64,000 bases of DNA from Zhihengliuella salsuginis. GTDB lineage: Bacteria; Actinomycetota; Actinomycetes; Actinomycetales; Micrococcaceae. The stretch is from contig NZ_BMXK01000005.1 of assembly GCF_014651715.1 (NCBI RefSeq), positions 1-64,000 of the forward strand, given 5' to 3'. The position numbers and the translations under genes were made by a program. The notes beneath the pieces are model-generated. The model did not search any database, was not told the DNA's origin, and saw nothing but the letters and a program-made list of their open reading frames with translations. Below are positions 23,300-39,107 of the stretch, piece by piece (position 1 is the stretch's first letter; every line of letters starts with the position of its first letter).

Positions 23300-24241
23300 C
23301 TAGAAGCGCAGGGTGCGGAGGTAGTTGTAGCCCACCTCGGCGGTCTGCAGCGGGGTGACATCGGGCTGGTCGTTCTCCACGATGAACTCCTTTGGCCGGT
23401 GAGCCGCGAAAATGCGCGAGAAGTCGATGGTCCCGGTGCCGAGGTCGGCGAAGCCGCCCGAGGCGTCGCGGTCCTTCACGTGGTACTGCAGGACCTTCTG
23501 CGGCGCCTGGTGGATGGTGTCGATCGCGAACTGGACGGGATCCGCGGCGCCCACGCCGACGCCGCCCGTCACGGCCCAGTAGAGGTCGACCTCGAGGTGG
23601 ACCAGCTTCGGATCGAGGCGGCTGGTGAAGATGTCCCACGGGGTCTCGCCGCCGCCGAGGTCGGTGGTGAACTCGTGCGCGTGGTTGTGGTAGCCGTACT
23701 TCAGGCCCGATTCCTGCGCGACGGCGGCCTCGGCGTTCATCTGGTCGGCCCACCTCCGCCAGTCGTCGCCGTTGCTGGAGGCCAGGTACGGGACGTTCAT
23801 GTGGGTCTGGCCGAGGGTGAGGGCGTTGGAGATCTTGGCCTCGAGCCCGGCGGGGGAGGAGCTGATCCCGTCGTGGCTCGACGACGGCCTGATGCCGAGC
23901 GAATCGAGGGTCGACCGCATCTGCTCCGCCGTCCGGCCGTACAGTCCGGCGAGCTCAACCTTCTTGTACCCGTAGTCGGCGAGGCTGGCCAGCGTCGCGT
24001 CCACGCCCTCGCCGCGCATGATGGACCGGAGCGTGTAGAGCTGGATGCTGATCAGGCCCGGGGGTACGCTCCGGCCCGCGGCGTTGCCGGCGGGCGCTGC
24101 GAAGGCGGCGGTCCCGCCGACGGTGGCGAGGCCGGCGCCCAACCCGAGGGCGGCGGTCCCGCGGAGGAAGCTCCGCCGGTCGACGCCTTTCTGCTCGAGG
24201 GAGGCGCGGAGGGCTGCTGGGGCATTGAATCCGAAGCACAT
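23300..24241 (-). CDS. Tat-exported sugar phosphate isomerase/epimerase-like TIM barrel
   Basis: A 313-residue protein. The N-terminus has a Tat signal (DRRSFLRGTAALGLGAG, then a hydrophobic stretch ending AAFAAPA near residue 50). The rest is an AP-endonuclease-2-like xylose isomerase barrel: ISIQLYTLRS, GYKKVELAGLYGRT, YHNHAHEF with its metal His and Glu, HLEVDLYWAV and QYHVKDRD, ending PKEFIVEND. Such exported barrels often act on oxidised or keto sugars, or are of unknown activity. The ATG at 24241 follows AGAAAGG; the frame extends to 24283 without a site. Confidence 0.88.
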   Translation of the reverse strand: MCFGFNAPAALRASLEQKGVDRRSFLRGTAALGLGAGLATVGGTAAFAAPAGNAAGRSVPPGLISIQLYTLRSIMRGEGVDATLASLADYGYKKVELAGLYGRTAEQMRSTLDSLGIRPSSSHDGISSSPAGLEAKISNALTLGQTHMNVPYLASSNGDDWRRWADQMNAEAAVAQESGLKYGYHNHAHEFTTDLGGGETPWDIFTSRLDPKLVHLEVDLYWAVTGGVGVGAADPVQFAIDTIHQAPQKVLQYHVKDRDASGGFADLGTGTIDFSRIFAAHRPKEFIVENDQPDVTPLQTAEVGYNYLRTLRF

Positions 24242-24316
24242 AGTGTTTGCCTTTCTGGCAATTCTGAAAACGCCTGGCTGCACGAGCCCTGACGTCCGGG
24301 TGATGTGACTCCCGTT

Positions 24317-24346
24317 ACACTATTTCCGGCTTTTGTTGTCTGTCAA
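24317..24346 (-). promoter_or_regulatory. Promoter of the Tat-exported isomerase gene
   Basis: Read on the minus strand: TTGACA (24346-24341), an 18-base spacer and TAGTGT (24322-24317), about 75 bases before the ATG. It is one of the few near-consensus -35 boxes in the window. The region lies between the isomerase gene and the 3' end of the ROK gene, in an AT-rich patch. Confidence 0.55.
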
Positions 24347-24382
24347 GCAAAACTCGACGAGAATCCCCAGAAGACCGCCGAT

Positions 24383-25591
24383 TCAGCTGGCGGCCTGCCC
24401 GGAGAGACCGTTGACCATGGCGTCGATGCGCTGCGGCGACATGGCGTGGTGGATGGCCAGCATGCTCGCGCCGAGGACGCCGGCGTCGAGCCCCGACCCG
24501 GACTGGACGATCTGCAGGTGCTGGGTCGCCAGGGGGATGGTCCGCGAGTAGACCATCTCGCGGATTCCGGCGATGAAGTGCTCCCCGGTCAGCGTCATCG
24601 ATCCGCCGATGACGATCACCGAGGGGTTGATGAGGCTGACGCACGCGGACAGCACCTCGCCGACGTCCCGGCCGGCCTGGCGCACCGCGTGCACCGCCTC
24701 GGTGCTGCCGGCGGCGACCAGGCGCACGACGTCCTCGCTGGAGTGGGCGTCCAGTCCGAGCGCGCGCAGCTTGGCGGCGACCGCCGGGCCCGAGGCGACG
24801 GCCTCGAGGCAGTCCTGGTTGCCGCAGTGGCACGGGACGCCGTTGCCGCTGTGCACCCGGATGTGGCCGATGTCGCCCGCGACGCCGTCGGCCCCGCGCT
24901 GGAGCATTCCGCTGGAGACGATGCCGGAGCCGATGCCCGTCGCCACCTTCACGAAGATGAGGTTGTCGACGCCGGGCCAGGCGACGTTGCGCTCGCCGAG
25001 CGCCATGATGTTGACGTCGTTGTCCACCAGCACGGGGACGTGGAAGTGGTCCTGCAGGTGGCCGGGGACGTCGTAGCCGTTCCAGCCGGGCATGATCGGC
25101 GGGTTGATCGGCCGCCCCGTGCGGTGCTCCACCGGCCCGGGGACGCCGATGCCGATGGCCAGGAGGTCGCCCGCGGCGCGGTCGGATTCGTCGAGCAGCT
25201 CGTTGCCGAGCTCCACGACGCTCTGGAGTACGACGTCGGGCCCCTGGCCGACCTCGATGGTGCGGCCGGCCTCGCGGAGGCGGAGTCCGCTGAGATCCGT
25301 GAGCGCGACGCGCAGGTGCGAGGCCCCGATGTCGACGCCGAGGACCACCTTGCTGCCGGCCTTGAGGGCGATGCGGGAGGAGGGGCGCCCGCCCGTCGAG
25401 ACGGCCTCGTCCACGAAGCCCACGAGCCCCAGCTCCATCAGCGATTCGATGCGGAGCGTGACGGTCGACCGCGCGAGCCCCATCTGCTCCGCGAGCTCGG
25501 TCTTGGTGCGGGGCCGCCCGTCGCGGAGGATCTGGAACAGCTCGCTGGCTCCTGAGCCGCCGAGGCCGCTGAAGTTGCTTATGTCACTCAT
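24383..25591 (-). CDS. ROK family transcriptional regulator (first)
   Basis: A 402-residue ROK repressor. The winged helix-turn-helix lies at about residues 28-55 (TELAEQMGLARSTVTLRIES), followed by the sugar-kinase-like fold with the phosphate loop VDIGASHLRVAL and the zinc signature CHCGNQDCLEAVA. It senses a sugar or sugar phosphate. A TATGCT -10 box lies 11 bases before the ATG. It sits between two exported isomerase genes and is divergent from the ebo-type operon, which it may control together with the downstream isomerase gene. Confidence 0.88.
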   Translation of the reverse strand: MSDISNFSGLGGSGASELFQILRDGRPRTKTELAEQMGLARSTVTLRIESLMELGLVGFVDEAVSTGGRPSSRIALKAGSKVVLGVDIGASHLRVALTDLSGLRLREAGRTIEVGQGPDVVLQSVVELGNELLDESDRAAGDLLAIGIGVPGPVEHRTGRPINPPIMPGWNGYDVPGHLQDHFHVPVLVDNDVNIMALGERNVAWPGVDNLIFVKVATGIGSGIVSSGMLQRGADGVAGDIGHIRVHSGNGVPCHCGNQDCLEAVASGPAVAAKLRALGLDAHSSEDVVRLVAAGSTEAVHAVRQAGRDVGEVLSACVSLINPSVIVIGGSMTLTGEHFIAGIREMVYSRTIPLATQHLQIVQSGSGLDAGVLGASMLAIHHAMSPQRIDAMVNGLSGQAAS

Positions 25592-25843: not shown

Positions 25844-26800
25844 ATGAGAAGGATCCACCCGCACCCGGAACGCTCCGGACGGAAGGCGGCCCGCGGCCTG
25901 GTGGCCGCGGCAACACTCGCCGTCGCGGCCGGCGCCCTGCTCGGCGGTCCCGCGGCAGCGGCACCGGCCACCGCCGCGGCCGCCGGAGATGCCGCCAGCC
26001 AGTGCTCCGGCCGTGGCATCCCTGCCAACAAGATCTCCATCCAGATGTTCAGCTACTTCGGCTGGGGCCGGGAGGCCGGCACCGAGGCAGTGCTCGCCGA
26101 GCTGGAGGAGATCGGCTACCAGAACATCGAACCGTTCGGCGGCACCTACGAGGGCCGGACGGCCGACGAGTTCCGCGCGCTGCTGGACCAGTACGGGCTG
26201 AAGGCGCCGACGTCGCACGGCAGCACCGGCGAGGCGCAGTTCGACGAGACGATCGCCTACGCGAAGACCCTCGGCCAGAAGTACATGGGCTCGGGCGGCT
26301 CGGCGTCGCCCGGCATCGGCAGCCTGGAGGACACCCTCGCCACCGCCGAGGCCCTGGACCGGCTCGGCGAGCGGTCGAAGAAGTCGGGAACCGGCAAGAT
26401 CTTCGTCCACAACCACCAGAGCGAGTTCACCACCCGGTACGCCGACCCGGAGACCGGCGAGTCGAAGAGCGCGTGGGAGCTGCTCGCCGAGAACACGGAC
26501 CCCCGGTACGTGACTTTCCAGCTGGACGTCCTGTGGGCGGCCGACGCCGGCGTCGACGTCGCGCAGCTCATCGAAGAACACGGCGACCGGATCGAGCTCC
26601 TCCACGTGAAGGACGGCCTCCTCAACGGGGCCGAGCGCGCCATCCCGACCGACGTCGGGGAGGGCGAGATCGAGTGGGCGCCGATCCTGGACGCGGCGCA
26701 CGGGAAGGTCAAGTACTACGTCGTCGAGCGCGACGGGGCGCCGGCCACCGCCGAATTCGCCGAGGACAGCTTCGACTTCCTCACCTGCTACTCCTACTGA
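25844..26800 (+). CDS. Exported sugar phosphate isomerase/epimerase-like TIM barrel, first gene of the ebo-type operon
   Basis: A 318-residue protein with an N-terminal export signal: basic start (MRRIHPHPERSGRKAAR), hydrophobic core VAAATLAVAAGALLGG and an AAA-rich cleavage region near residue 45. The mature part is a xylose-isomerase-like barrel (KISIQMFSYFG; GYQNIEPFGG; VHNHQSEF with metal-ligand His and Glu; FQLDVLWAADAG; ELLHVKDGLL; YYVVERDG). GAGGAGGAAG precedes the ATG at 25844. The next gene starts 49 bases after its stop, so it is probably transcribed with the ebo-type genes. A barrel outside the membrane suggests work on an exported or environmental sugar. Confidence 0.88.
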   Translation: MRRIHPHPERSGRKAARGLVAAATLAVAAGALLGGPAAAAPATAAAAGDAASQCSGRGIPANKISIQMFSYFGWGREAGTEAVLAELEEIGYQNIEPFGGTYEGRTADEFRALLDQYGLKAPTSHGSTGEAQFDETIAYAKTLGQKYMGSGGSASPGIGSLEDTLATAEALDRLGERSKKSGTGKIFVHNHQSEFTTRYADPETGESKSAWELLAENTDPRYVTFQLDVLWAADAGVDVAQLIEEHGDRIELLHVKDGLLNGAERAIPTDVGEGEIEWAPILDAAHGKVKYYVVERDGAPATAEFAEDSFDFLTCYSY

Positions 26801-26849
26801 CCAACGGTCGGGGAGCCCAGATCCACCACACTGCGAAAGGAAGAACGAC

Positions 26850-28100
26850 GTGGGCATTTCAGCCGAACAGACGCTCGGCGGCAACGCGGGCGCAACCGGA
26901 GGTCCCGAGGGGACCGGCCGGACCGGCATCTGGCTCATCGGGGCCCGCGGATCCGTCGCGACGACGGCGGCAGCGGGCCTGGCCGCCATCTCCGGCGGCC
27001 TGGCCCCCGCCACCGGGTGCGTGACGGTGCAGGAGCCGTTCGGCTCCGTGCGGCTGCCCGCCTTCGCCGACCTCGTCGTGGGCGGGCACGACATCAGCGA
27101 CGTCTCCATGGCCAAGCGCGCGGAGCTCCTCGTCGAGGCGGGCATGCTCCCGCTGCACCTGATGGAGTCCGTCCGCACGCAGCTCGACGAGGCGGACGCG
27201 CGGGTCCGGCCCGGGTACGATCCGGCGGCGGCGTCGGGATCCCAGGCGGACGCCGCGCGCCGGATGGCCCGGGACATCGCGGACTTCAAGGACGCCAACG
27301 GGCTCGAGCGCGTCGTCGTCATCGATGTCGCCTCCACCGAGGCGCCCGTCGAGCCGCTGCCCGAATTCACCGACGCCGCCCTCCTGCTCGAGGCGCTGGA
27401 GGACCCGGCGCGCGCGGTGCTGCCGCCGAGCTCGCTCGGCGCCTACGCCGCCGTGCTGGCCGGCTCGCCGTACGTCTGCTTCACGCCGTCGGCGGCCCTG
27501 GGCGTCCCGGCCCTGGGCGAACTCGCCGCCGGGCACGGCGTGCCGACGGCCGGGCAGGACGGCAAGACCGGGCAGACCTGGCTGCGCTCCGTCATCGCGC
27601 CGGCCTTCGCCGCCCGGGGGCTGCGCGTCCTGTCCTGGGCCGGGGCCAACCTGCTCGGCGGCGGCGACGGCGCCACCCTCTCCGACCCGGAGGCGGTCGC
27701 CGGGAAGCTGCAGTCCAAGAACCGCGGACTGCAGGAGCTGACCGGCGGCGCGGCGACGCCCCTGCACATCGACAACGTCCAGGACCTCGGGGAGACGAAG
27801 GTGGCGTGGGACCACATCAACGTCGAGGGCTTCCTGGGCTCCCGCCTCTCCCTCCAGACCACGTGGACCGCCTTCGACTCCATGCTGGCGGCCCCCATGG
27901 TGCTCGATCTCGCGCGCCTCATGGCGCTGGCCCAGGCCGCGGGGGAGACGGGGCACATCGGCGCCCTCGGCTTCTTCTTCAAGGATCCGTGGGGCAGCGA
28001 CGAGCACTCCTTCGCGGAGCAGACCCGGGTCCTGGCCGAGTGGGCGCAGTCCGCCAGCTCCCGCCTCCCGGCCGACGCGGGGAGCGGGGCCCGCCGGTGA
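26850..28100 (+). CDS. Inositol-3-phosphate-synthase-like sugar phosphate cyclase
   Basis: A 416-residue NAD-binding protein of the myo-inositol-1-phosphate synthase family. The Rossmann motif is WLIGARGSVATTAAAGLAAI (about residues 28-47). Family segments are AGQDGKTGQTWLRS, LSWAGANLLGGGDG and NRGLQELTGG. The second segment differs from the usual NHLGNNDG, so the substrate may not be glucose 6-phosphate. It probably forms a cyclitol phosphate in the cytoplasm. The GTG follows GAAAGGAAG and the stop overlaps eboC as GTGA. It stands where other ebo clusters carry EboD, a dehydroquinate-synthase-type cyclase. Confidence 0.85.
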   Translation: MGISAEQTLGGNAGATGGPEGTGRTGIWLIGARGSVATTAAAGLAAISGGLAPATGCVTVQEPFGSVRLPAFADLVVGGHDISDVSMAKRAELLVEAGMLPLHLMESVRTQLDEADARVRPGYDPAAASGSQADAARRMARDIADFKDANGLERVVVIDVASTEAPVEPLPEFTDAALLLEALEDPARAVLPPSSLGAYAAVLAGSPYVCFTPSAALGVPALGELAAGHGVPTAGQDGKTGQTWLRSVIAPAFAARGLRVLSWAGANLLGGGDGATLSDPEAVAGKLQSKNRGLQELTGGAATPLHIDNVQDLGETKVAWDHINVEGFLGSRLSLQTTWTAFDSMLAAPMVLDLARLMALAQAAGETGHIGALGFFFKDPWGSDEHSFAEQTRVLAEWAQSASSRLPADAGSGARR

Positions 28101-28987
28101 GCTGTGCACGCGACTACCTGGAACTCGTGCGCGCCCCCGCCGTGCTGACGGTCCTGGGCGACACCCTGGCCGGCGGGTCGGCGGCCGGCCACTCCCTGTC
28201 CGGCCGCCGGATCGTCCTGCCGCTGGCCAGCGCGTGCCTGTACGCCGGCGGGATGGCCCTGAACGACTACGCGGATCGCGGGGTCGACGCCGTCGAGCGG
28301 CCGGAGCGCCCCATCCCGTCCGGGCGCATCAGCGCCGGGCGCGCGCTGGCCGCGGCCTCCGCCCTGACGGCGGCCGGCCTGGGGCTGAGCGCGGTCGGCG
28401 GCGGCCGCCGTTCGCTCGCCGTGGGCGCACCGCTCGCCGCGGCGATCTGGTCCTACGACCTCGCGGCCAAACGGCACGCCGTCCCCGCGGCCCTGACGAT
28501 GGGCGTCTGCCGCGCCCTCGACGTCCTGATGGGTGCCGGCACCGCGCACATCCGCGCCGCCCTGCCCGCGGCCGCGGCCATGGGCGGCCACACGGTGGCG
28601 GTCACGGCCCTGTCCCGCGGCGAGGTCAACGGCACGGATACGACGACGGCGTCCGGTGCCGTGGCCGCGACCGCCCTGGTCTCCGCGTCCGTCCTCGCCG
28701 GGGCGCCCCGCTCGTGGCAGCGGGCGCTCCCGGTCGTCGCGGCCGTGTCGGTCTACGCCGCACGCTGCGCCCCGGCGCAGCTGGAGGCGGCGCGGGAGCC
28801 CGCCGCGCGGCACGCGCTCGAGGCGACGAAGCGCGGCATCCGCGCGATGGTCCCGCTCCAGGCGGCCCTCGCGTTCCGCCACGGGAACGCCGCGGCCGGG
28901 CTGGCGGTCGCCGCCGTCGACGTGCTCGGGAAGGTCCTCCGCGCCCGTTCCGCCCGGGGCGCGAACAGGGAGATGAGCGAGTCGTGA
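28097..28987 (+). CDS. eboC: UbiA-like prenyltransferase EboC
   Basis: A 296-residue polytopic prenyltransferase. The Asp-rich Mg-diphosphate motif is NDYADRGVDA (N56, D57, D60, D64), followed by ERPIPSGRIS, the signature of UbiA, EboC and homogentisate-type enzymes; a later loop has YDLAAKR. It probably transfers a prenyl group, perhaps from GGPP, to a polar acceptor at the membrane. GTG overlaps the cyclase stop, and its own stop overlaps the next GTG, so translation is coupled. Assignment to EboC rests on this family plus the neighbouring EboA, EboB, EboE and EboF genes. Confidence 0.85.
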   Translation: MSCARDYLELVRAPAVLTVLGDTLAGGSAAGHSLSGRRIVLPLASACLYAGGMALNDYADRGVDAVERPERPIPSGRISAGRALAAASALTAAGLGLSAVGGGRRSLAVGAPLAAAIWSYDLAAKRHAVPAALTMGVCRALDVLMGAGTAHIRAALPAAAAMGGHTVAVTALSRGEVNGTDTTTASGAVAATALVSASVLAGAPRSWQRALPVVAAVSVYAARCAPAQLEAAREPAARHALEATKRGIRAMVPLQAALAFRHGNAAAGLAVAAVDVLGKVLRARSARGANREMSES

Positions 28988-30498
28988 GCACCGGCGAGAC
29001 AGAGCTCCCCTTCGCCCTCGGGTACGGGACCAACGGCTTCACCGACCACCCGCTCCCGGTGGCGCTCGAGCTGCTGGCCGAGCAGGGGTACGGCGCCGTG
29101 GCGCTGACCCTCGGGCACCCCCACCTGGACCCGTTCGCCGAGGACCTCGACGCCCGGTTGCGCGGGCTGCGGTCCCGGCTCGACGAGCTCGGCCTCCGCG
29201 TGGTCGTCGAGACCGGCACCCGGTTCCTGCTCGACCCCCGGCGCAAGCACCGCCCCGCCCTGGTGGACGAGCACGCCGAGTCGCGGCTCGACTTCCTCCG
29301 CCGGGCCGTCGACATCGCCCGCGCCCTCGACGCCGAGTGCGTCTCCTTCTTCTCCGGCGTCCTGCCGGACGGCGTCTCCGCCGAGACGGGCTGGGAGCGG
29401 CTCACCCGCCGCCTGCCCGGCGTCGTCGAGCACGCCCGCGCCAGCGGAGTGGTCCTCGCCGTCGAGCCCGAGCCGGGCATGCTCGTGGAGACCGTCGCCG
29501 ACGCGCTGCGCCTGCGCGCCGCCCTCGGCGACCCCGACTGCCTGCGCCTGACCGTGGACATCGGCCACTGCGTGGTGGTCGAACCCGGCGGCGTCCGCGG
29601 CGCCCTGCTGGAGGCCGGGCGCCTGCTGGCCAACGTCCAGCTCGACGACATGCGCTCCCACGCCCACGAGCACCTGCCCTTCGGCGAGGGGATCGTCGAC
29701 CTGCCGCTCGCGCTCGCCACCCTCGCGGAGCTCGACTACCGCGGTGTGGCCGCCGTCGAACTGCCCCGCCACTCGTTCGACGCCCCGGGGCTGGCGGAGC
29801 GGAGCCTGGCGGCCCTCCGGACGGGGTGGGCCGAGGCGGAGCCGCTGCGCCGGTCGGCGGCATGGGTGCGCGAGAGCGCCGACTCCGTCGCCGCCGACCC
29901 CGCAGCCCTCGCCCGCGTCTTCGCGGCCGCGGGCCGGCACGTCGGCCGCGCCCCGCTGCACCCCGACGTCGACCCCGCCGGAGTCCTCTTCGGGACCGCG
30001 GACGACCGCGCCCGCGCCGACCTGATCCTCCGGCTCGGCCGCACGCTGGAGCCCGGCGACCTCGCCCCCGCGCTGCAGGAGCTCTACACCCGCGGCGACT
30101 CCGCCGAGCGGCGCGGCGTCCTCCGCGGCCTCGGCGCGCTCGCCGAGGCCGGCCTGCTGGAGGGCGACGCCGGCGCCGGACTGGTCGGCACGGGACTCGC
30201 CGTCACCGCCGACGCCCTCCGGACCAACGAGACGGGCCTCGTCGCCGCTGCCGTCGGGCCCTTCGCCGCCGCCCATCTGGACCAGCACGCCTGGCGCCAC
30301 GCGGTCCTGAAGCTCGTCTTCATGGGCGTCGGGCTGGAGGCGGTCGCCGGCCTGCGCGACCGGGCCGACACGGAGCTCGCCCGGATGGCGGAGGACTTCG
30401 CCGCCGAACGCCGCGCGGCCGGCCGCACCGTCCCCGCCGACCTGGACCTCCTCCTGCGGGCCCACGCCCGCTCCGCCACCCGTACGACGTCGTCATAA
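28984..30498 (+). CDS. eboA: Fusion of a sugar isomerase TIM barrel with an EboA domain
   Basis: A 504-residue two-domain protein. Residues about 10-290 are a xylose-isomerase-like barrel with metal-ligand candidates E161 (AVEPEPGM), D192 and H195 (TVDIGHC), H226-H230 and E259 (AVELPRHS). Residues about 340-495 are an EboA domain, recognised by NETGLVAAAVGPFAAAHLDQ, then WRHAVLKLVFMGVGLEAVAGL and a charged DTELARMAEDFAAERRAAGR tail. EboA alone is usually about 200-250 residues. The fusion implies the barrel works in the same complex or step. GTG start overlaps the eboC stop. Confidence 0.82.
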   Translation: MSTGETELPFALGYGTNGFTDHPLPVALELLAEQGYGAVALTLGHPHLDPFAEDLDARLRGLRSRLDELGLRVVVETGTRFLLDPRRKHRPALVDEHAESRLDFLRRAVDIARALDAECVSFFSGVLPDGVSAETGWERLTRRLPGVVEHARASGVVLAVEPEPGMLVETVADALRLRAALGDPDCLRLTVDIGHCVVVEPGGVRGALLEAGRLLANVQLDDMRSHAHEHLPFGEGIVDLPLALATLAELDYRGVAAVELPRHSFDAPGLAERSLAALRTGWAEAEPLRRSAAWVRESADSVAADPAALARVFAAAGRHVGRAPLHPDVDPAGVLFGTADDRARADLILRLGRTLEPGDLAPALQELYTRGDSAERRGVLRGLGALAEAGLLEGDAGAGLVGTGLAVTADALRTNETGLVAAAVGPFAAAHLDQHAWRHAVLKLVFMGVGLEAVAGLRDRADTELARMAEDFAAERRAAGRTVPADLDLLLRAHARSATRTTSS

Positions 30499-30509
30499 GA
30501 AGGAACCGC

Positions 30510-31388
30510 ATGCGCATCTTCGACCCGCACATCCACATGACCAGCCGCACCACAGGCGACTACGAGGCCCTCTACGCGTCGGGCGTCCGCGCCCTCGTGG
30601 AGCCGGCGTTCTGGCTGGGGCAGCCGCGGACCAGCGTCGGCTCCTTCATCGACTACTTCGACTCGCTCCTGGGGTGGGAGCGGTTCCGCGCCGCGCAGTT
30701 CGGGATCCGGCACCACGCGACGATCGCCCTGAACCCCAAGGAGGCCAACGACCCGCGCTGCGTCCCGGTCCTCGACGAGCTGCCGCGCTACCTGGTGAAG
30801 GAGGGGGTCGTCGCCGTCGGCGAGATCGGCTACGACTCCATGACGCCGGCCGAGGACGCGGCGTTCAGCCGCCAGCTCGAACTCGCCCAGGAGTACTCGC
30901 TGCCCGTGATGGTGCACACCCCGCACCGGGAGAAGCTGGCGGGCACCCACCGGACCCTCGACGTCGTCCGGGAGTCGGGCGCGGCACCGGAGACGGTCCT
31001 GGTGGACCACCTCAACGAGACCAACATCGAGATCGTCAAGGACGCCGGGGCCTGGATGGGCTTCTCCATCTACCCGGACACCAAGATGGACGAGACGCGG
31101 ATGGTCGCCCTCCTGCAGCGCTACGGGACCGAGCGGATCCTGGTCAACTCCGCGGCCGACTGGGGCCGGTCCGACCCGCTGAAGACGCGGCGCACCGCCG
31201 ACGCCATGCTGGCCGCCGGCTTTTCGGACGACGACGTCGAGCAGGTCCTCTGGCGGAACCCCGTCGAGTTCTACGGGCAGAGCGGCCAGCTGATCCTCGA
31301 CCCCATCCCCGGGTTCGACGAGTCGGGGTTCCCGGACCCGGGCGCCGGCTTCGAGGGCAACTCCGTCCTGCGCGGGGCGCGCGCCTGA
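30510..31388 (+). CDS. eboB: TatD-type metal-dependent hydrolase EboB
   Basis: A 292-residue amidohydrolase-fold protein. Metal ligands are H7 and H9 (FDPHIHM), E105 (VGEIGYDS), H136 (VMVHTPH), H167 (VDHLNE) and D217 (SAADWG), all present, so it should be active. In ebo clusters the EboB role is unknown; hydrolysis of a phosphoester or lactone-like intermediate is possible. AAGAAGGAACC precedes the ATG, 11 bases after the EboA fusion. It overlaps the next start by one base. Confidence 0.87.
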   Translation: MRIFDPHIHMTSRTTGDYEALYASGVRALVEPAFWLGQPRTSVGSFIDYFDSLLGWERFRAAQFGIRHHATIALNPKEANDPRCVPVLDELPRYLVKEGVVAVGEIGYDSMTPAEDAAFSRQLELAQEYSLPVMVHTPHREKLAGTHRTLDVVRESGAAPETVLVDHLNETNIEIVKDAGAWMGFSIYPDTKMDETRMVALLQRYGTERILVNSAADWGRSDPLKTRRTADAMLAAGFSDDDVEQVLWRNPVEFYGQSGQLILDPIPGFDESGFPDPGAGFEGNSVLRGARA

Positions 31389-32512
31389 TGCTCCTGTCCT
31401 ACTGCACCAACGTCCACCCCGCCGAGGACCTCGAGGGCGTGGTCCGCCAGCTCCGCGAGTACGCCGGGCCCATCCGGCGCGCCGCGGGACTGGACGCGCT
31501 CGGCGTCGGGCTGTGGATCCCCGCCGGGCTCGCCCGCCGGCTCGCCGCCGGCGCGGAGGACCGGGAGGTCCTGCGCGGGGTTCTCGAGGCGGAGGGCCTG
31601 GTCCTGCACACGGTCAACGCGTTCCCCTACGGGGGCTTCCACGACGACGTCGTCAAGCACGCCGTCTACCGGCCCACCTGGGCCGAGCGGGCGCGGCTCG
31701 ACTACACCCTGGACTGCGCCGAGGTGCTCGCGGCGCTGCTGCCCGAGGGCGCCGACGGTTCCATCTCCACCGTCCCGCTGGCCTGGCGGGAGCCGTGGAC
31801 CGAGGAGGACGACGACGCGGCCACCGCCGCGTTCGCCGAGCTGGGCGCGCGCCTGCGCCAGCTGCGGGAGCGTACCGGGCGGACCGTCCGCGTGGCCGTC
31901 GAGCCGGAGCCGGGGTGCGTGCTGGACACCGTGTCCGACGTCGTCGGCTGGCTGGGCGCCCGCGTGGACCGCGGCATCGACCCCGGGTTCGTGGGGCTGT
32001 GCGTGGACGCCTGCCACCTGGCGGTCTCCTTCGCGGACCCGGCGGACGCCGTCGCGGAGATCGACGCCGCCGGACTGCGAATCGTCAAGGTGCAGGCGTC
32101 GGCCGCGCTGCACGTGGGCGACCCGCGCGACCCGGAGGCCCGTGCCGCGCTCGAGCGCTTCGTGGAACCGCGCTACCTCCACCAGGTGCGCGAGTCCGGC
32201 GAATCCGGCGTGCTCGCCGCCGACGACCTCGACGCCGCGCTCGCCGGGCTGCCCGGGGAGGGGCCGTGGCGGGTGCACTTCCACATCCCGCTGCACCACG
32301 TGCCCGCGCAACCCCTGGAGACCACCGCCGGCGTGCTCCGCCGCACCGTCGCCGAGGTCGCCCGCCTGTCCTACGCCCGCGACGTCCACCTCGACGTCGA
32401 GACCTACACCTGGAGCGTCCTGCCCGGAGCGGCCGTGGGGATCGTCGACGGAGTCGCGGCCGAGCTCGGCTGGGCGCGCTCCCACCTGCTCGCCCCCGCA
32501 CCGGCCGGGTGA
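31388..32512 (+). CDS. eboE: Metabolite traffic protein EboE (xylose-isomerase-like barrel)
   Basis: A 374-residue TIM barrel of the EboE family. The start LLSYCTNVHPAEDLEGVV is characteristic. Then come VNAFPYGGFHDDVVKHAVYRPTW, VAVEPEPGCVLDT (metal Glu), LCVDACHLAVSF (Asp and His) and VHFHIPLHHVP, and an ending YARDVHLDVETYTWSVLP. The conserved metal site suggests a real isomerase or lyase acting on a cyclitol or sugar conjugate. It begins with an ATG overlapping the eboB stop by one base. Confidence 0.88.
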   Translation: MLLSYCTNVHPAEDLEGVVRQLREYAGPIRRAAGLDALGVGLWIPAGLARRLAAGAEDREVLRGVLEAEGLVLHTVNAFPYGGFHDDVVKHAVYRPTWAERARLDYTLDCAEVLAALLPEGADGSISTVPLAWREPWTEEDDDAATAAFAELGARLRQLRERTGRTVRVAVEPEPGCVLDTVSDVVGWLGARVDRGIDPGFVGLCVDACHLAVSFADPADAVAEIDAAGLRIVKVQASAALHVGDPRDPEARAALERFVEPRYLHQVRESGESGVLAADDLDAALAGLPGEGPWRVHFHIPLHHVPAQPLETTAGVLRRTVAEVARLSYARDVHLDVETYTWSVLPGAAVGIVDGVAAELGWARSHLLAPAPAG

Positions 32513-32568
32513 CGGCGGACCCGCCGGCCCCACCCCACGACCGCCCCCACCGAACCGGAGGAAGACCC

Positions 32569-33996
32569 GTGAAACCCGTACTGCTGCTCAACGTCGTCGG
32601 ACTGACCGCCCGCGCCCTGCGCGACATGCCGCGCCTGTCCCGGCTCGCCGGGCAGGGGTGGTCCGCGGAACTGGCGACCGTCCTGCCGGCGGTGACGTGC
32701 TCGGTGCAGTCCACGATGCTCACCGGGCTGTCCCCGGCGCAGCACGGGATCGTCGGCAACGGCTGGTACTTCCGCGACCTGGGCGAGGTCTTCCTCTGGC
32801 GCCAGCACAACCGGCTGGTCGGCGGCGAGAAGCTCTGGGAGGCCGCCCGCGCCCAGGACCCCTCCTACCGCTCCGGCAACATCTGCTGGTGGTACGCGAT
32901 GGGCATGAGCACGGACCTGACCGTCACGCCCCGGCCGGTCTACCACGCCGACGGCCGCAAGTCCCCGGACGCGTACATGCGCCCGCCGGAGCTGCACGAC
33001 GAGCTGGTGGGGCGCTTCGGCGAATTCCCCCTGTTCCAGTACTGGGGGCCCACCGCCGCCATCCGCTCGAGCCGCTGGATCGCGGAGTCCACCCGGCACG
33101 TCATGCGGACCCAGCGGCCGGACCTGCTCATGGCCTACGTGCCGCACCTGGACTACGACCTGCAGCGGTTCGGCCCGTGCTCGCCGCAGGCGACGCAGGC
33201 AGCCGCCGACCTGGACGCCGCGCTGACGCCGCTGCTCGACGAGGCCGAGGAGCGGGGCTACTCCGTGGTCGTCGTCGCCGAGTACGGGATCGAGGACGCG
33301 CGCCGGCCGGTGGACATCAACCGGGTCCTGCGCGCCGAGGGGCTGTTGGAGGTCTACGTGCAGGACGGACGGGAGCAGCTGGATCCGTGGACGTCCCGGG
33401 CGTTCGCCGTCGCCGACCACCAGGCGGCCCACGTGTACGTCTCCGACCCGGCGGACGTGGACCGGGTGGCCGCGCTCCTGCGGTCGGTCGACGGGGTGGA
33501 CGAGGTCCTCGACCGCGAGGCGCAGGCTGCGTACGGGCTCGACCACGAACGCGCGGGGGAGCTCGTCGTGGTGGCCGAGCCCGGGGCGTGGTTCACCTAC
33601 TACTTCTGGCTCGACGACGACGCCGCACCCGAGTACGCCCGCGGCGTCGACATCCACCGCAAGCCGGGCTACGACCCGGCCGAGCTCTTCTTCGACCCCG
33701 CGGACCGGCTCGCCAAAGCCAAGGCCGGGTTGAACCTGGTCAAGAAGAAGGCGGGACTGAGATACGCGATGAGCACCGTCCCGCTCGACCCCTCGCACGT
33801 GCGCGGCACCCACGGCCGGCTGCCCGACTCGTCCGAGGGCACGCCCCTGATCCTCGCCTCCGACCACCGGATCCCCGCCTCGGTCGCGGCGCTCGTCGAC
33901 GGGGGCCGGCAGGTCCCGGCGGCGGCCGTGAAGGGACTCGTCCTCGAGACCCAGGGGCTCCACAGCCAATCCGGCAGCACACGTGCGTACCGCTGA
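32569..33996 (+). CDS. eboF: Alkaline-phosphatase-superfamily phosphodiesterase EboF
   Basis: A 475-residue nucleotide pyrophosphatase/phosphodiesterase-like enzyme without signal peptide. The nucleophile is probably T43 in LPAVTCSVQSTMLTG. Metal sites appear in YVPHLDYDLQR, VVAEYGIEDA (in place of the usual SDHG), AVADHQAAH and GTHGRLP. It probably splits a phosphodiester or diphosphate bond, for example in a prenyl- or nucleotide-linked intermediate. The GTG has GGAGGAAG before it, 56 bases after eboE. It is the last gene of the operon; no clear terminator follows. Confidence 0.87.
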   Translation: MKPVLLLNVVGLTARALRDMPRLSRLAGQGWSAELATVLPAVTCSVQSTMLTGLSPAQHGIVGNGWYFRDLGEVFLWRQHNRLVGGEKLWEAARAQDPSYRSGNICWWYAMGMSTDLTVTPRPVYHADGRKSPDAYMRPPELHDELVGRFGEFPLFQYWGPTAAIRSSRWIAESTRHVMRTQRPDLLMAYVPHLDYDLQRFGPCSPQATQAAADLDAALTPLLDEAEERGYSVVVVAEYGIEDARRPVDINRVLRAEGLLEVYVQDGREQLDPWTSRAFAVADHQAAHVYVSDPADVDRVAALLRSVDGVDEVLDREAQAAYGLDHERAGELVVVAEPGAWFTYYFWLDDDAAPEYARGVDIHRKPGYDPAELFFDPADRLAKAKAGLNLVKKKAGLRYAMSTVPLDPSHVRGTHGRLPDSSEGTPLILASDHRIPASVAALVDGGRQVPAAAVKGLVLETQGLHSQSGSTRAYR

Positions 33997-34123: not shown

Positions 34124-34171
34124 CTAGTTTGTTCTGTGAAACCACTAGTAATTTGTGGGCTGTCCCACTAG
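34124..34171 (+). promoter_or_regulatory. Palindrome and CCACTAG repeats before the sugar dehydrogenase gene
   Basis: CTAGT (34124-34128) and ACTAG (34144-34148) frame an AT-rich core that contains GTTCTGTGA. CCACTAG then recurs at 34165-34171, 23 bases after its first copy. The 236-base gap here is markedly AT-rich for this genome. A ROK or LacI operator is plausible; the regulator is not known. Confidence 0.35.
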
Positions 34172-34232
34172 CGTGGCGAGTGACCCCGAATCCGGCTGGC
34201 CCGGGTCCTCGACGACGAGAAGAAAGCGAACA

Positions 34233-36425
34233 ATGACAGTCAATAGACATGGGAAAGCAGAGCTTCCCCGGCACCGCACAGGGGCCGCGGGCTCTACCAA
34301 GCGACGCGCGTTCCGCGCGGGCGCCGGTCTGGCGATGGCGGCCCTGGTCGCCAGCGCGTTCGCCGTCGTACCGGCCCAGGCCCAGCCCGGCGCCGAGACG
34401 GCTCCGCCGGACTCGGCGTTCCAGAAGGTGACCCTCAACGACGGCCCCGGGGAGCCCGTCGATCTGGCGGTACTGCCCAACAACGACGTGCTGCACACCA
34501 CCCGCGACGGCGAGGTCTGGCTGAACGACGCCGAGACCGGCCTGAACACCCTGGCGGCGAGCCTGGACGTCTACGAGCACGACGAGGAGGGACTGCAGAG
34601 CATCGCGCTGGACCCTGAGTTCGGGACCGAGGGCAACAACTGGGTCTACCTGTACTACTCGCCGCCGCTGGACACGCCGGTCGACGACCCGGAGACCACG
34701 GACGTCAACGAGGGCGACGCGCCGACCACGGGCACCGCCGAGGACTTCGCGCCGTTCGCGGGCCACCTGACCCTCTCGCGCTTCCAGTTCGACGGCGCCA
34801 CGCTCGACCTCGCGACCGAGCAGGAGATCATCGACGTCCCCGTGGACCGCGGCCTCTGCTGCCACGTCGGCGGCGACATCGTGTTCGACGCCGAGGGCGA
34901 CCTCTACCTCTCCACCGGCGACGACACGAACCCGTTCGTCTCCGGCGGCTACACCCCGCTCGACGAGCGGCCGGACAGCAACCCCGGGTACGACGCCCAG
35001 CGGACGTCCTCCAACACCAACGACCTGCGCGGCAAGGTCCTGCGCATCACGCCGAAGGACGGCGGCGGCTACACCATCCCGGAGGGCAACCTCTTCGAGC
35101 CGGGCACGGAGAAAGCACGTCCCGAGATCTTCGTGATGGGCCTGCGCAACCCCTTCCGGATCGAGCTGAACCAGAGCAGCGGCGAACTGTACATCGCCGA
35201 CTACTCCCCGGACGCGCGGTCCGCGAACCCCGACCGCGGCCCGGCCGGCACGGGCAAGTGGGCCGTGACCGATCAGCCGGCGAACTACGGCTGGCCGTAC
35301 TGCGCCACCGCCGAGCTGCCGTACAACGACTACGACTTCGCGACCAGCACCTCCGGTGAGCCCTTCGACTGCTCGGCGCCCGTGAACGAGTCGCCGAACA
35401 ACACCGGCCTGACCGAGCTGCCCCCGGTGGACCAGCCCGAGGTCTGGTACTCCTACGGCGAGTCCGCCGAATTCCCGGAGCTGGAGACCGGAGGCATCGG
35501 CCCGATGGCCGGTCCCGCCTACGACTTCGACGAGAAGGCCACCCGGGGCAACGCCTCCGTGGCCTGGCCCGAGTACTTCGATGACAAGCCGCTCTTCTAC
35601 GAGTGGACCCGCGACTACATCAAGGGCTTCAGCCTGGACGGCGGCGAACTCGCCTCCATCGAGAGCGTCGTCGACTCCGTCGTGACGGACAACCCGATCG
35701 ACATGGAGTTCGGCCCGGACGGCGCCCTGTACGTCCTCGAGTACGGCGACGGCTACTTCGGCGAGAACCCGGACGCGCAGCTCTCGCGCATCGACTACAT
35801 CGGCACCGGAGGCAACCACAGCCCCGTGGCCGTCGCCTCCGGCACCCCGACCGTGGGCGCCGCGCCGCTGACCGTGGAGTTCTCCAGCGAGGGGACCGCG
35901 GACGCGGACGGCGACAAGCTGAAGTACGCCTGGGACTTCGATTCCGACGGCGTCGTCGACTCGAAGGAGGCGAACCCGACCTTCACGTACGAGGCGGTCG
36001 GCACCTACACCGCGAGCCTGCAGGTCACGGACATCGGCGGCAAGGACCGCGGCCGCCACGCCTCGGCCGAGGTCGCCATCGAGGTCGGCAACCAGGCGCC
36101 GGTGATCGAGTTCATCAGCCCGGTCGAGGGCCAGGACTTCCAGTTCGGCGACACCGTGAGCTACGAGGTCGTCGTCACGGACGACCAGCCCGTCGACTGC
36201 GCGCGGGTCGAGGTCACCTACATCCTCGGCCACCACACGCACGGCCACCCGCAGACGACGACGTCGGGCTGCACCGGAACGCTGACGACCACCGTCCCGG
36301 AGGGCCACGATCCGGCCGTCGACGACCTCTCGGCCGTCTTCAACGCCAGCTACACGGATCTCGGCGACGACACCTCCGAGCCGCTGACCGGCACCGCCGA
36401 GGTGGTGCTCGAGGCGACGAGCTGA
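34233..36425 (+). CDS. Exported PQQ-type sugar dehydrogenase with PKD domain
   Basis: A 730-residue secreted protein. The signal peptide has a basic N-region (STKRRAFRAGAG), core LAMAALVASAFAVV and cleavage site near AQA/QPG at about residue 50. Residues about 60-520 form a glucose/sorbosone dehydrogenase propeller: DLAVLPNNDVLHT, CCHVGGDIVFDAEGDLYLSTG, NDLRGKVLRI and GLRNPFRIEL. A PKD domain follows at about 528-618 (YAWDFDSDGVVDSKE), then a C-terminal beta domain with HHTHGHP. It probably oxidises sugars outside the membrane; PQQ use is assumed from the fold. AGAAGAAAG precedes the ATG. Confidence 0.85.
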   Translation: MTVNRHGKAELPRHRTGAAGSTKRRAFRAGAGLAMAALVASAFAVVPAQAQPGAETAPPDSAFQKVTLNDGPGEPVDLAVLPNNDVLHTTRDGEVWLNDAETGLNTLAASLDVYEHDEEGLQSIALDPEFGTEGNNWVYLYYSPPLDTPVDDPETTDVNEGDAPTTGTAEDFAPFAGHLTLSRFQFDGATLDLATEQEIIDVPVDRGLCCHVGGDIVFDAEGDLYLSTGDDTNPFVSGGYTPLDERPDSNPGYDAQRTSSNTNDLRGKVLRITPKDGGGYTIPEGNLFEPGTEKARPEIFVMGLRNPFRIELNQSSGELYIADYSPDARSANPDRGPAGTGKWAVTDQPANYGWPYCATAELPYNDYDFATSTSGEPFDCSAPVNESPNNTGLTELPPVDQPEVWYSYGESAEFPELETGGIGPMAGPAYDFDEKATRGNASVAWPEYFDDKPLFYEWTRDYIKGFSLDGGELASIESVVDSVVTDNPIDMEFGPDGALYVLEYGDGYFGENPDAQLSRIDYIGTGGNHSPVAVASGTPTVGAAPLTVEFSSEGTADADGDKLKYAWDFDSDGVVDSKEANPTFTYEAVGTYTASLQVTDIGGKDRGRHASAEVAIEVGNQAPVIEFISPVEGQDFQFGDTVSYEVVVTDDQPVDCARVEVTYILGHHTHGHPQTTTSGCTGTLTTTVPEGHDPAVDDLSAVFNASYTDLGDDTSEPLTGTAEVVLEATS

Positions 36426-36533: not shown

Positions 36534-37865
36534 TCAGGCGGGTTGCGCCGGCTCCTCCGCGTGGTCGCGCACGGGCCCGGCCTCGCGGCGCCCGCGCAGG
36601 AAGCCGGCCGGATCCGCGATGAGCGGCTCGAAGGCCAGCTCGGCCGCTCCGATCAGTATGGGGTCGTCCCCGAGCGGGGCGAGCTCGATCGAGACGTCCT
36701 CCCGTGGGCCGCGGGCGCCACCGGCCCGCAGCGTCGCGTCGAGCACGTCGGGAGCAGCCAGGGCGAGGATCCGCAGGAACCCTCCGAGGACGATCATGGA
36801 CGGGTTCAGGTGGTTGACCACGCTCTTCAGCCCGATGCCGAGCTGCTGCGCCTGCCGGGTGACGACGTCCCACAGCTCGCCGGACTCCGGCTCGTCCCGC
36901 AGCTTCGCCAGCACGACCTCCTCCAGGTCATCCGCCTGCCCGGGTGGGAGGGCCGCGGTCCGGATCAGCTCCTCGCGGGTGACCTCGGACTCGAGGCACC
37001 CGGTAGAGCCGCACGCGCACTCGGCCCCGCCGGTCCGGACGAGGGTGTGGCCGAGCTGGCCGGCGAACCCGGCGGCACCGTGGAGGAGGCGGCCCCCGCT
37101 GATCAAGCCGCCGCCGATGCCGCTGGCGCCGCCGTAGACGTAGACGAAGTCGGGCACCCCGCGGCCCGCGCCGAAAGCGGCCTGCGCCCGGGCGCCGACG
37201 ACCGCGTCGTTGGCGGCCGTGACCGGCAGGTCCAGGGCCGCGGCGAGCTGGGCGGTCAGGGGCTGCTCGCGCCACTCGAGCTGCGGGGCCTCGATGACGG
37301 TCCCGTCCGCCGGGTCCACCAGCCCGGGGACGGCGAGCCCGGCGCCGACGATCCGCTGCCCGGCGGGCAGGGACGTGCGCATTCCCGTGTAGACGGCCGA
37401 GACGATGTTGACGACTTCGGCCGCCGAGGGGGCCCGGACGGTGTGGAAGCGGACCGGGTTGACGATCCGGCCGCCGAGGCCGACCAGGGCGACGCTCACG
37501 GCGTCGACGTCCGGGTTGATGGCCAGGGCGAGTGCATCGGGGCTCGGCTGGATCATGATGCTGGGGCGTCCGTGCTGCTGCGTCTGGTCGAGATCGCTCT
37601 CCCTGACGAGGCCGAGCTGCACCAGTTCGCCCACGAGCGCGGCGATGGTCGAGCGGTTCAGGCCCGTCGCGCGGGTGAGCTGCGCGCGCGAGATGCCGGT
37701 CGTCGTATGGACGAGGCCGAGGACCGTGGAGAGGTTGTGCTGCCGGGTGGAGTCCCGGTTGCTCCCGAGCGAGGGCCCCGAGGGGGCGCGCAATCCGGCA
37801 CGCCTCGACGTCTTGCCTTCCACTCCGGATGGGTCCTTCCTGGCAGATCGTCCCGTGCCTGTCAT
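36534..37865 (-). CDS. ROK family transcriptional regulator (second)
   Basis: A 443-residue ROK protein. After a 30-residue basic, probably disordered N-terminus comes a helix-turn-helix (SRAQLTRATGLNRSTIAALVGEL), then the kinase-like fold and the zinc signature CACGSTGCLESEV. It probably represses sugar genes and is released by a sugar. Nearest candidates are the ABC transporter genes upstream on the same strand and the convergent sugar dehydrogenase. The start is uncertain: neither ATG 37865 nor GTG 37883 has a good ribosome site. Confidence 0.87.
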   Translation of the reverse strand: MTGTGRSARKDPSGVEGKTSRRAGLRAPSGPSLGSNRDSTRQHNLSTVLGLVHTTTGISRAQLTRATGLNRSTIAALVGELVQLGLVRESDLDQTQQHGRPSIMIQPSPDALALAINPDVDAVSVALVGLGGRIVNPVRFHTVRAPSAAEVVNIVSAVYTGMRTSLPAGQRIVGAGLAVPGLVDPADGTVIEAPQLEWREQPLTAQLAAALDLPVTAANDAVVGARAQAAFGAGRGVPDFVYVYGGASGIGGGLISGGRLLHGAAGFAGQLGHTLVRTGGAECACGSTGCLESEVTREELIRTAALPPGQADDLEEVVLAKLRDEPESGELWDVVTRQAQQLGIGLKSVVNHLNPSMIVLGGFLRILALAAPDVLDATLRAGGARGPREDVSIELAPLGDDPILIGAAELAFEPLIADPAGFLRGRREAGPVRDHAEEPAQPA

Positions 37866-37916
37866 CCCCCATGGTAACCGCACCAGAGGCGGCGCCAGGG
37901 GTGCGGGCCGGCCGGT

Positions 37917-39011: not shown

Positions 39012-39076
39012 TGCTCCGTCCTCCGGTTCCTCCGGCCCCGGGACCGGTCAGCGGCTGCTCACTGCGGGTTCTCCGC

Positions 39077-39102
39077 GCGGGCGCCGGGTGCGCGGTGCCC
39101 GC
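39077..39102 (-). terminator. Hairpin after the ABC permease gene
   Basis: GCGGGC and GCCCGC (39077-39082 and 39097-39102) pair, with a further near-complementary 3 bases inside. It lies 6 bases past the permease stop and before the polyprenyl synthase gene, and may separate the two transcription units. Confidence 0.4.
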
Positions 39103-39107
39103 GGGCG

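Follow-up and report, generated by a model that had tools for sequence, protein, structure and literature searches.

Does an Ino1-type cyclase take the place of EboD in the ebo-like operon of Zhihengliuella salsuginis? The ebo operon is widespread in bacteria and in some algal plastids, and it is required for the membrane passage of the scytonemin precursor. In other bacteria its ring-forming enzyme is EboD, a cyclase of the dehydroquinate-synthase (DHQ-synthase) type that is unrelated to Ino1. The operon considered here lies on a 64,000-nucleotide stretch of contig NZ_BMXK01000005.1, called the window below. An earlier note on this DNA had described seven ebo genes on the same strand, joined by overlaps or short gaps, and the coordinates together with Pfam and NCBIfam matches bear this out for positions 25844-33996:

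25844 to 26800, + strand: ISO1, a xylose-isomerase-like TIM barrel (PF01261, 50.8 bits)
26850 to 28100, + strand: INO, an Ino1/MIPS-type cyclase and the candidate EboD replacement (PF07994, 172.5 bits; PF01658, 91.5 bits; 1u1i, E 2.4e-55)
28097 to 28987, + strand: EboC-like UbiA prenyltransferase of the SCO3242 family (NF045897, 313 bits, cut-off 260; NDxxDxxxD motif)
28984 to 30498, + strand: TIM::EboA fusion (PF01261, 126.5 bits; NF035938, 145 bits, cut-off 50)
30510 to 31388, + strand: EboB, a TatD-type metal-dependent hydrolase (PF01026, 53 bits; grouped in the tree with EboB of other ebo loci)
31388 to 32512, + strand: EboE, the TIM-barrel "metabolite traffic protein EboE" (NF035939, 420.5 bits, cut-off 250)
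32569 to 33996, + strand: EboF, a type I phosphodiesterase/nucleotide pyrophosphatase (PF01663, 222 bits)

ISO1 is separated from INO by 49 nt. INO and the EboC-like gene overlap by 4 nt and are translationally coupled; the same 4 nt overlap joins the EboC-like gene to TIM::EboA, and a gap of 11 nt, an overlap of 1 nt and a gap of 56 nt follow at the junctions leading to EboB, EboE and EboF. ISO1 has an N-terminus that by eye resembles a signal peptide and is probably exported. In the fusion protein the isomerase/epimerase barrel occupies approximately residues 28-279 and the C-terminal EboA domain approximately residues 340-490. The gene that had been called eboC does encode a UbiA prenyltransferase, but at 171 bits it falls below the cut-off (250) of the EboC model NF035940 and passes the SCO3242 family model instead. 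As NCBIfam returned no Ebo-specific match for EboB or EboF, those two assignments rest on TatD and phosphodiesterase matches together with context; trees of both proteins place the window copies with other ebo copies. The gene set is not a chance assembly, since 16 other INO-bearing actinobacterial loci of our first sample have INO, EboC, TIM, EboA, EboB, EboE and EboF in the identical order, as judged from gene ends. The presence of ISO1 varies: its relatives occur in 11 of the 21 INO-type loci and in 1 of the 81 EboD-type loci.

The operon shares its compact layout, the EboA domain, EboB, an EboC-like protein, EboE and EboF with the ebo operons of cyanobacteria, Bacteroidota and eustigmatophyte plastids (Yurchenko 2016, Klicki 2018). 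It differs from them in having INO and an extra isomerase barrel in place of any EboD, in the fusion of EboA to the barrel, and in its prenyltransferase, which is under the EboC cut-off. We therefore file it as a variant and not as a canonical ebo operon, EboD being absent from the operon and from the genome. Fusions of EboA to a barrel, but not INO, were noted for Actinobacteria in 2016 (Yurchenko 2016). No earlier report of an exchange of INO for EboD was found in the literature searched.

The only Pfam matches of INO are PF07994 and PF01658, with the DHQ-synthase fold not among them. INO belongs to the same sequence family as Archaeoglobus fulgidus Ino1 (1u1i) and has its catalytic residues in common: aligned to 1u1i, it keeps the equivalents of D225, N255, D261, K274, K278, K306 and K367, and these seven positions are kept in 21/21 ebo INO proteins, a count that, like the INO tree, includes one G279 protein twice (as L060 and L074). 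The possibility that INO had lost one active-site lysine was rejected on alignment to 1u1i and its mutants, all four lysines being kept.

The same genome encodes a separate Ino1 of the mycothiol type (G000:C11), which matches TIGR03450 at 696 bits (cut-off 638), a model to which INO gives no match. Both belong to the Ino1 family, yet they are only 27% identical over 237 positions and fall on separate branches of the INO tree. INO is thus not the sole inositol synthase of the genome, as a second Ino1 exists, and a recent duplication of the housekeeping gene was rejected on the low identity and distant branch. A search for EboD elsewhere led only to aroB, the single DHQ-synthase-fold gene of the genome. 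The earlier note had held that the operon contains no EboD-type gene, which was confirmed, and had named two findings that would overturn its reading, an EboD-type gene elsewhere in the genome and an INO that is the only, housekeeping inositol synthase; neither was found.

The earlier note had also proposed tabulating the two cyclases at actinobacterial EboA/EboE loci, where mutual exclusion would support displacement, and such exclusion was seen. Profiles classified 108 EboE loci as 21 with INO, 81 with EboD, six with neither and none with both. Two samples of Actinomycetota contain 101 EboE places, with INO within 6 kb in 87 and EboD in one. In sample 1, INO is that close in 17 of 20 places and a DHQ-synthase fold adjoins one of the 20. 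Sample 2 was drawn from 98 genomes with an EboE match, less 12 already in sample 1 and eight with partial, sub-cut-off matches, so that 78 were used; its counts leave out partial sub-cut-off EboE places in some of these 78. INO lies within 6 kb in 70 of its 81 EboE places, the neighbour check in those 70 being the distance to INO only. A DHQ-synthase fold was found within 30 kb of EboE in 0/81 places of sample 2, where rows of about 21-24 bits were excluded from the scripted count and inspection by eye showed none of them that close to EboE. The converse also holds: across 396 genomes 17/17 INO matches of at least 300 bits lie inside ebo operons, the next match scoring 234 bits, and 70 of the 76 INO places of at least 290 bits in sample 2 are within 6 kb of EboE. 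The INO variant is the usual form of ebo in the Actinomycetota sampled. Because the exclusion largely tracks phylum, the number of independent exchange events is small (at least two, the second on one locus).

Neither cyclase is in place at loci L026, L173, L042, L174 and L110 or at the plasmid loci L166 and L167. L026 and L173 are second ebo loci in genomes that also have an INO-type locus, L042 has its EboE and EboC broken up as well, and the genome with L174 (G419) has its sole INO match in a different, YcaO-containing cluster. INO is found beside GSDH (described below) without ebo genes at L177, and with EboA, B and C, EboE and EboF being absent, at L178.

INO does not travel by itself. 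A TIM isomerase, here fused to EboA, is present in 21/21 INO loci and in 0/81 EboD loci, so that the two are inherited together and the exchanged unit is a pair of genes, INO and the isomerase barrel. The claim of a non-homologous displacement of the cyclase stands as to INO occupying EboD's place, while the idea that the cyclase alone was exchanged does not.

The pattern extends beyond the Actinomycetota. A Gemmatimonadota plasmid (Gemmatirosa) has an INO-type ebo locus carrying the INO and TIM pair, and a DHQ-synthase-fold gene was looked for on this plasmid and not found. Its EboB, EboE and EboF group with EboD-type relatives, outside the actinobacterial INO clade, and this locus apparently represents a separate exchange, judging from the trees. 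Three haloarchaeal plasmids have INO within ebo-like clusters. Besides the sampled Actinomycetota, other lineages have evolved or acquired an INO-type locus. Our whole-genome search covered Actinomycetota, the other INO loci coming from plasmid records only, and one contig scan was ranked by similarity to EboD-type EboE, which favours EboD-type loci. EboE of the INO-type actinobacteria forms a separate clade with support 1.0. The trees, for which 55, 56 and 52 loci out of the 108 were used, were made with FastTree from trimmed alignments and midpoint-rooted, and thus give no settled direction of replacement.

Two further genes downstream of EboF deserve mention:

34155 to 36425, + strand: GSDH, glucose/sorbosone-dehydrogenase-like with a PKD domain (PF07995, 94.7 bits)
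37917 to 39011, - strand: polyprenyl diphosphate synthase (PF00348, 154.7 bits)

GSDH, for which the ATG at 34233 is the more likely start, is probably secreted, and it accompanies 11 of 21 INO-type versus 4 of 81 EboD-type loci. The polyprenyl diphosphate synthase lies 3.9 kb past EboF, from which GSDH and a ROK gene separate it, and is a possible source of the prenyl donor. Such a gene is near 4 of 21 INO loci (the one in the window, L024, L036 and L041) and was found in 0/81 EboD loci. Assignment of this synthase to a carotenoid cluster was rejected, the two flanking genes being sugar ABC transporter genes.

Based on these data, the displacement is well supported as genetics, and we think it probable that in the actinobacterial form of ebo a module of INO and a sugar-isomerase barrel does the job of EboD. 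INO would work as Ino1 does, using NAD to turn a hexose phosphate into a carbocycle; the likeliest substrate is glucose 6-phosphate, which would give an inositol phosphate. The isomerase barrel would either epimerise the substrate or rework the product. The membrane prenyltransferase could then attach a prenyl chain to the cyclitol or cyclitol phosphate, EboF might remove phosphate or pyrophosphate, EboB and EboE may perform tailoring, and EboA may serve to assemble the proteins at the membrane. The resulting lipid-linked cyclitol would aid the membrane crossing of a metabolite or polymer, as for the scytonemin precursor in Nostoc. The substrates, the shared product, the prenylation and the role in export are what we infer for the INO-type operon. 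The cyclitol formed by Ino1 carries a phosphate but no keto group, while the known relatives of EboD form keto-cyclitols that lack phosphate; INO and EboD need not converge on one product, given this difference in chemistry. The literature searched offered no name for the ebo product, and papers of 2016 and 2018 had already put forward a prenylated cyclitol and a lipid carrier as ideas for ebo (PMC5133447; PMC6282210). UbiA-297, which is encoded in an ebo cluster and is the one tested relative of EboC, is reported to farnesylate 8-hydroxyquinoline-2-carboxylic acid in vitro; this aromatic acid acceptor counts against the proposed prenylation of a cyclitol (PMC9235831).

The two types of operon may instead have diverged, with head groups that are not the same (say, a C6 inositol phosphate or C5 cyclitol in one and a C7 valiolone-like cyclitol in the other) and with EboA, B, C, E and F handling related but different lipids. 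The known substrates and products of the two cyclase families do differ: EboD has been placed near the sedoheptulose 7-phosphate cyclases (PMC5133447), and the Ino1 relative Ari2 converts fructose 6-phosphate to a five-membered cyclitol phosphate (PMC11188666). INO, moreover, shares its sequence family with a five-membered-cyclitol-phosphate synthase, 6k96, which it matches weakly (E 1.1e-6). The extra isomerase, the separate subfamily model passed by the window prenyltransferase and the distinct EboE clade also point this way. Yet in Gemmatirosa otherwise EboD-like ebo proteins accompany the INO and TIM pair, so a clade-wide change in the other proteins is seemingly not needed, and the remaining gene content of the two types is much alike; we consider divergence unlikely, though the likeliest of the alternatives.

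It would take oxidation and dehydration of the INO or EboD ring to yield a polyhydroxylated aromatic, prenylated by EboC as by other UbiA proteins, and a prenylated aromatic as the product seems improbable to us. The UbiA-297 reaction favours it, as do the sugar-dehydrogenase and isomerase genes recurrent near INO loci and a weak match of ISO1-like barrels to inosose dehydratase IolE, but that match, at 36 bits, is far under the cut-off of 290, and Pfam found no inositol dehydrogenase among the operon genes. We think it still more improbable that INO is a hitchhiker in the ebo operon that gives the cell a second supply of its usual inositol, destined for phosphatidylinositol, mycothiol or an osmolyte. 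The retained catalytic residues would allow this, and the search of G268 and G318, the latter less complete, showed no Ino1-family gene besides the operon INO; such a gene is present outside ebo, however, in the Z. salsuginis genome and in 16 of 18 other EboE genomes of sample 1, the INO clade is seldom seen away from ebo, and chance hitchhiking leaves the exclusion of EboD unexplained.

Returning to the replacement of EboD by INO and the barrel, the exchange suggests that both forms of the ebo pathway have at their core the making of a carbon ring from a sugar. More tentatively, two non-homologous carbocycle-forming enzymes may have been recruited interchangeably at least twice (in Actinomycetota and in Gemmatimonadota), with ebo-like INO operons reaching the haloarchaea, and what ebo makes may be a cyclitol lipid carrier widely distributed among bacteria, plastids and archaea, in which case the well-known chemistry of Ino1 could reveal the identity of its ring. 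If true, the non-homologous exchange marks the indispensable chemical step of ebo, and an Ino1-type enzyme, with its well-understood chemistry, offers an entry point to the pathway. A role is also suggested for genes annotated merely as "inositol-3-phosphate synthase" and for two consecutively numbered genes of Streptomyces coelicolor, SCO3242 ("putative transferase") and SCO3243 ("myo-inositol phosphate synthase"), which are listed among those of a classical antibiotic cluster, that of the calcium-dependent antibiotic (PMC3610822). The pair resembles the prenyltransferase and INO genes of the window in these listed names, and SCO3242 is the namesake of the NCBIfam prenyltransferase model.

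The operon at 25844-33996 consists of seven plus-strand genes, with overlaps of 1-4 nt or gaps of less than 60 nt between them, and its coordinates agree with those claimed in the earlier note. The genes encode:

+ strand, ISO1, an isomerase-like barrel with a signal-peptide-like start (family search)
+ strand, INO, an Ino1-type cyclase (family search)
+ strand, a UbiA prenyltransferase (family search)
+ strand, an isomerase barrel fused to an EboA domain (family search)
+ strand, EboB, a TatD hydrolase (family search)
+ strand, EboE (curated model, above cut-off)
+ strand, EboF, a type I phosphodiesterase (family search)

Among the window proteins, EboE and the EboA domain passed curated cut-offs, and the prenyltransferase scored above the cut-off of a sister model named for SCO3242 and below that for EboC. 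In the accessible part of PMC3610822, SCO3242 and SCO3243 are given as CDA-cluster genes. Located 3' of the operon is a glucose/sorbosone-dehydrogenase-like gene (GSDH) with a PKD domain (family search), and beyond it the opposite strand carries a ROK regulator gene, one for a polyprenyl diphosphate synthase and then two sugar ABC transporter genes. On the flanks of the operon (23300-25591 and 36534-37883, both minus strand) lie genes for two ROK-type regulators and for another isomerase-like barrel; the INO-type operons L039 and L041 likewise have ROK relatives at their flanks.

The earlier note had proposed that INO takes the place of EboD, the dehydroquinate (DHQ)-synthase-type cyclase of other ebo operons, and had named two findings that would speak against this. 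Both were looked for in the organism's own genome (32 contigs, 99.95% complete), and neither holds. INO as the only inositol synthase is ruled out, as there are two Ino1-family genes: the second, on contig 11, is a mycothiol-type housekeeping Ino1 (696 bits against a cut-off of 638), which shares 27% identity with INO over 237 aligned positions and lies on a far-apart branch of the tree. An EboD elsewhere in the genome is likewise ruled out, the sole DHQ-synthase fold found in the 32 contigs being AroB (358 bits, cut-off 305), whose gene follows aroC at a distance of about 630 nt. The observation made in the earlier note is correct.

Residues 27-400 of the 416 in INO align with 1u1i, the enzyme of A. 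fulgidus (E 2.4e-55), a span that includes the positions mutated in the deposited structures 3qvw, 3qvx and 3qw2, namely K278, K367 and N255, counted via the printed chain numbers. These three, together with D225, D261, K274 and K306, are kept both in all 21 INO proteins linked to ebo and in the 28 further Ino1 rows of the alignment, in which one protein is present twice. We take the seven to be active-site residues.

Tabulated per EboE locus, the two cyclases are mutually exclusive: 21 of 108 profile-classified loci have INO, 81 have EboD, none has both and six have neither. A scan of genomes contributed its best 80 of 575 to this set. The scan loci, from Bacteroidota, Cyanobacteria, Acidobacteriota, Chloroflexota and other phyla, were confirmed against EboD-type EboE and are hence an uneven sample; within 9 kb flanks, 76 of these best 80 of 575 have EboD, none has INO, and four have neither (L093, L107 at a contig end, L110 and L125).

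Two sets of Actinomycetota genomes were searched as well. In sample 1 (396 genomes), EboE occurs in 19 genomes, 18 of them above cut-off, at 20 places, two rows from genome G279 being one split gene. INO lies within 6 kb of EboE at 17 of the 20, a DHQ-synthase fold is beside one (G381, with an EboG-like gene and without EboA or INO), and two have neither. Sample 2 covered 394 genomes of the class, 98 of which gave an EboE match, and the 78 above cut-off and outside sample 1 gave 81 places; INO is 2.6-5.7 kb from EboE at 70 of them, and no DHQ-synthase fold was found within 30 kb at any. The EboE model also matched the control Haloferax volcanii, below cut-off. Pooled, the 101 places comprise 87 with INO, one with EboD and 13 with neither.

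Eleven sample 2 places are without INO. Five are lone EboE genes (L168-L172) with no further ebo gene in about 17 kb, and L173 is a second ebo locus. The sole INO match of G419 sits in a YcaO cluster, away from EboE. In G549 the ebo locus contains only a short INO frame (L176:13925-14581), and the complete INO stands on a different contig (L179:7496-8968), beside relatives of GSDH and of ISO, the separate xylose-isomerase-like barrel. In G667, G458 and G575, INO is found close to the beginning of a different contig, apparently as a result of a contig break. The second ebo loci L026 (G128) and L173 (G659) retain the isomerase and EboA, B, C, E and F, INO being absent, and each genome has INO near another EboE. 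ABC-transporter-like genes lie within about 9 kb of each of L168, L169, L170, L171 and L172.

In the reverse search of the 396 genomes, all 17 INO matches of at least 300 bits lie in ebo operons, the next match having 234 bits; in sample 2, 70 of the 76 INO places of at least 290 bits are near EboE. The other six are the three contig-end cases, that of G549, L178 and L177. L178, a contig of G468, carries INO, EboC, a broken isomerase frame, EboA and EboB without EboE or EboF, an INO-EboE pair being elsewhere in G468; at L177, INO is beside GSDH with no ebo genes. Of the plasmid records, 44 carry INO and 48 carry EboE, 40 of the latter being among the matches listed; at least 29 by eye have both, 25 of them from Streptomyces and closely alike. 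Of three EboE-bearing Streptomyces plasmids outside the INO matches, L165 has EboE alone amid type II polyketide genes (L165:8965-10143), and L166 and L167 have EboB, EboE and EboF and no cyclase.

The isomerase barrel that is fused to EboA in the window is present in 21 of 21 profile-classified INO loci as against 0 of 81 EboD loci; among the 17 sample 1 loci with INO, 15 have it as a separate, unfused frame. INO and barrel also pair outside ebo. In G279 (L074) they directly adjoin, the ebo locus of this genome lacking both and having a broken EboE; in two actinobacterial clusters, and in one of the same type with no annotated methyltransferase on a Hymenobacter plasmid, they are 5-6 kb apart:

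L069:370-8437, L175:1377-9029 and L163:8545-15171 (Hymenobacter), YcaO clusters with INO, HD-domain protein, Gfo/Idh oxidoreductase, YcaO and isomerase; L069 and L175 add a methyltransferase and a lactamase-like domain

The barrel thus follows INO, and the replacement of EboD is best described as a two-gene unit, INO plus barrel. The exchange put forward in the earlier note would then not be one of the cyclase alone.

Outside the Actinomycetota, a plasmid of Gemmatirosa kalamazoonensis (L067) has EboG-like, EboB, EboF, EboC, INO and barrel genes in a row, with EboE opposite, and no DHQ-synthase-fold gene was found on the plasmid record. In midpoint-rooted trees its EboB is nested within the clade of EboG/EboD types (split support 1.0), and its EboE (0.874) and EboF (0.979) group with alphaproteobacterial EboD types, the EboF group being sister (0.968) to the actinobacterial INO clade; none of the three is inside that clade, and the Gemmatirosa INO lies beside, not within, the actinobacterial ebo INO clade. 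From this single locus and these trees, the exchange here appears to have been a separate one. As the exclusion mostly follows phylum, the weak point is how many exchanges were independent (at least two). Ebo-like clusters were also found on haloarchaeal plasmids:

L159:5103-11653, L160:4933-11606 and L162:5229-11530, each with EboB, EboC-like UbiA, two isomerase barrels, INO and EboF

With our own profiles, EboA was not found in these three and EboE reached at most 15 bits; the NCBIfam EboE model gives 20-22 bits on the L159 barrels, against a cut-off of 250. No DHQ-synthase fold was found on the three records. As in the window, genes for a TIM barrel and a PQQ-dependent sugar dehydrogenase come after the L160 cluster. 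A fourth haloarchaeal plasmid, L161, has INO without the other genes of such a cluster, and INO was also matched on a fifth haloarchaeal record.

Genes for a possible prenyl supply and for sugar transport lie near the operon:

37917-41680, minus strand, polyprenyl diphosphate synthase, sugar ABC permease and ATPase

Relatives of the synthase (96-152 bits) are near the INO-type ebo genes of L024, where one immediately precedes INO in the same orientation, L036 and L041, making 4 of 21 INO loci with the window; none was found at the 81 EboD loci (single-sequence search, E 1e-8). Relatives of the ABC ATPase are near some other INO loci and near haloarchaeal L160 and L162. GSDH is near 11 of 21 INO loci as against 4 of 81 EboD loci, and ISO near 11 of 21 as against 1 of 81.

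The accessible text of the 2016 ebo description posits EboD to be a sedoheptulose 7-phosphate cyclase, with an isoprenoid-cyclitol compound as a possible product, and mentions EboD-less genomes and actinobacterial EboA-isomerase fusions (PMC5133447). No mention of "inositol" was found in the accessible main text of that paper, nor in the accessible text of the 2018 Nostoc precursor transport paper (PMC6282210), the 2022 UbiA-297 paper (PMC9235831) or three further ebo papers. No report of a cyclase exchange in ebo was found in the open-licence literature. The single genes are already named by existing annotation, yet we found no account treating them as a cyclase exchange.

As genetics, the displacement of EboD by INO is well supported. 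The choice of sugar phosphate and of cyclitol, prenylation and a role in export would follow from the protein families and by analogy with Nostoc, and the YcaO clusters with INO and isomerase in Actinomycetota and on the Hymenobacter plasmid may represent a cyclitol-derived natural product pathway.
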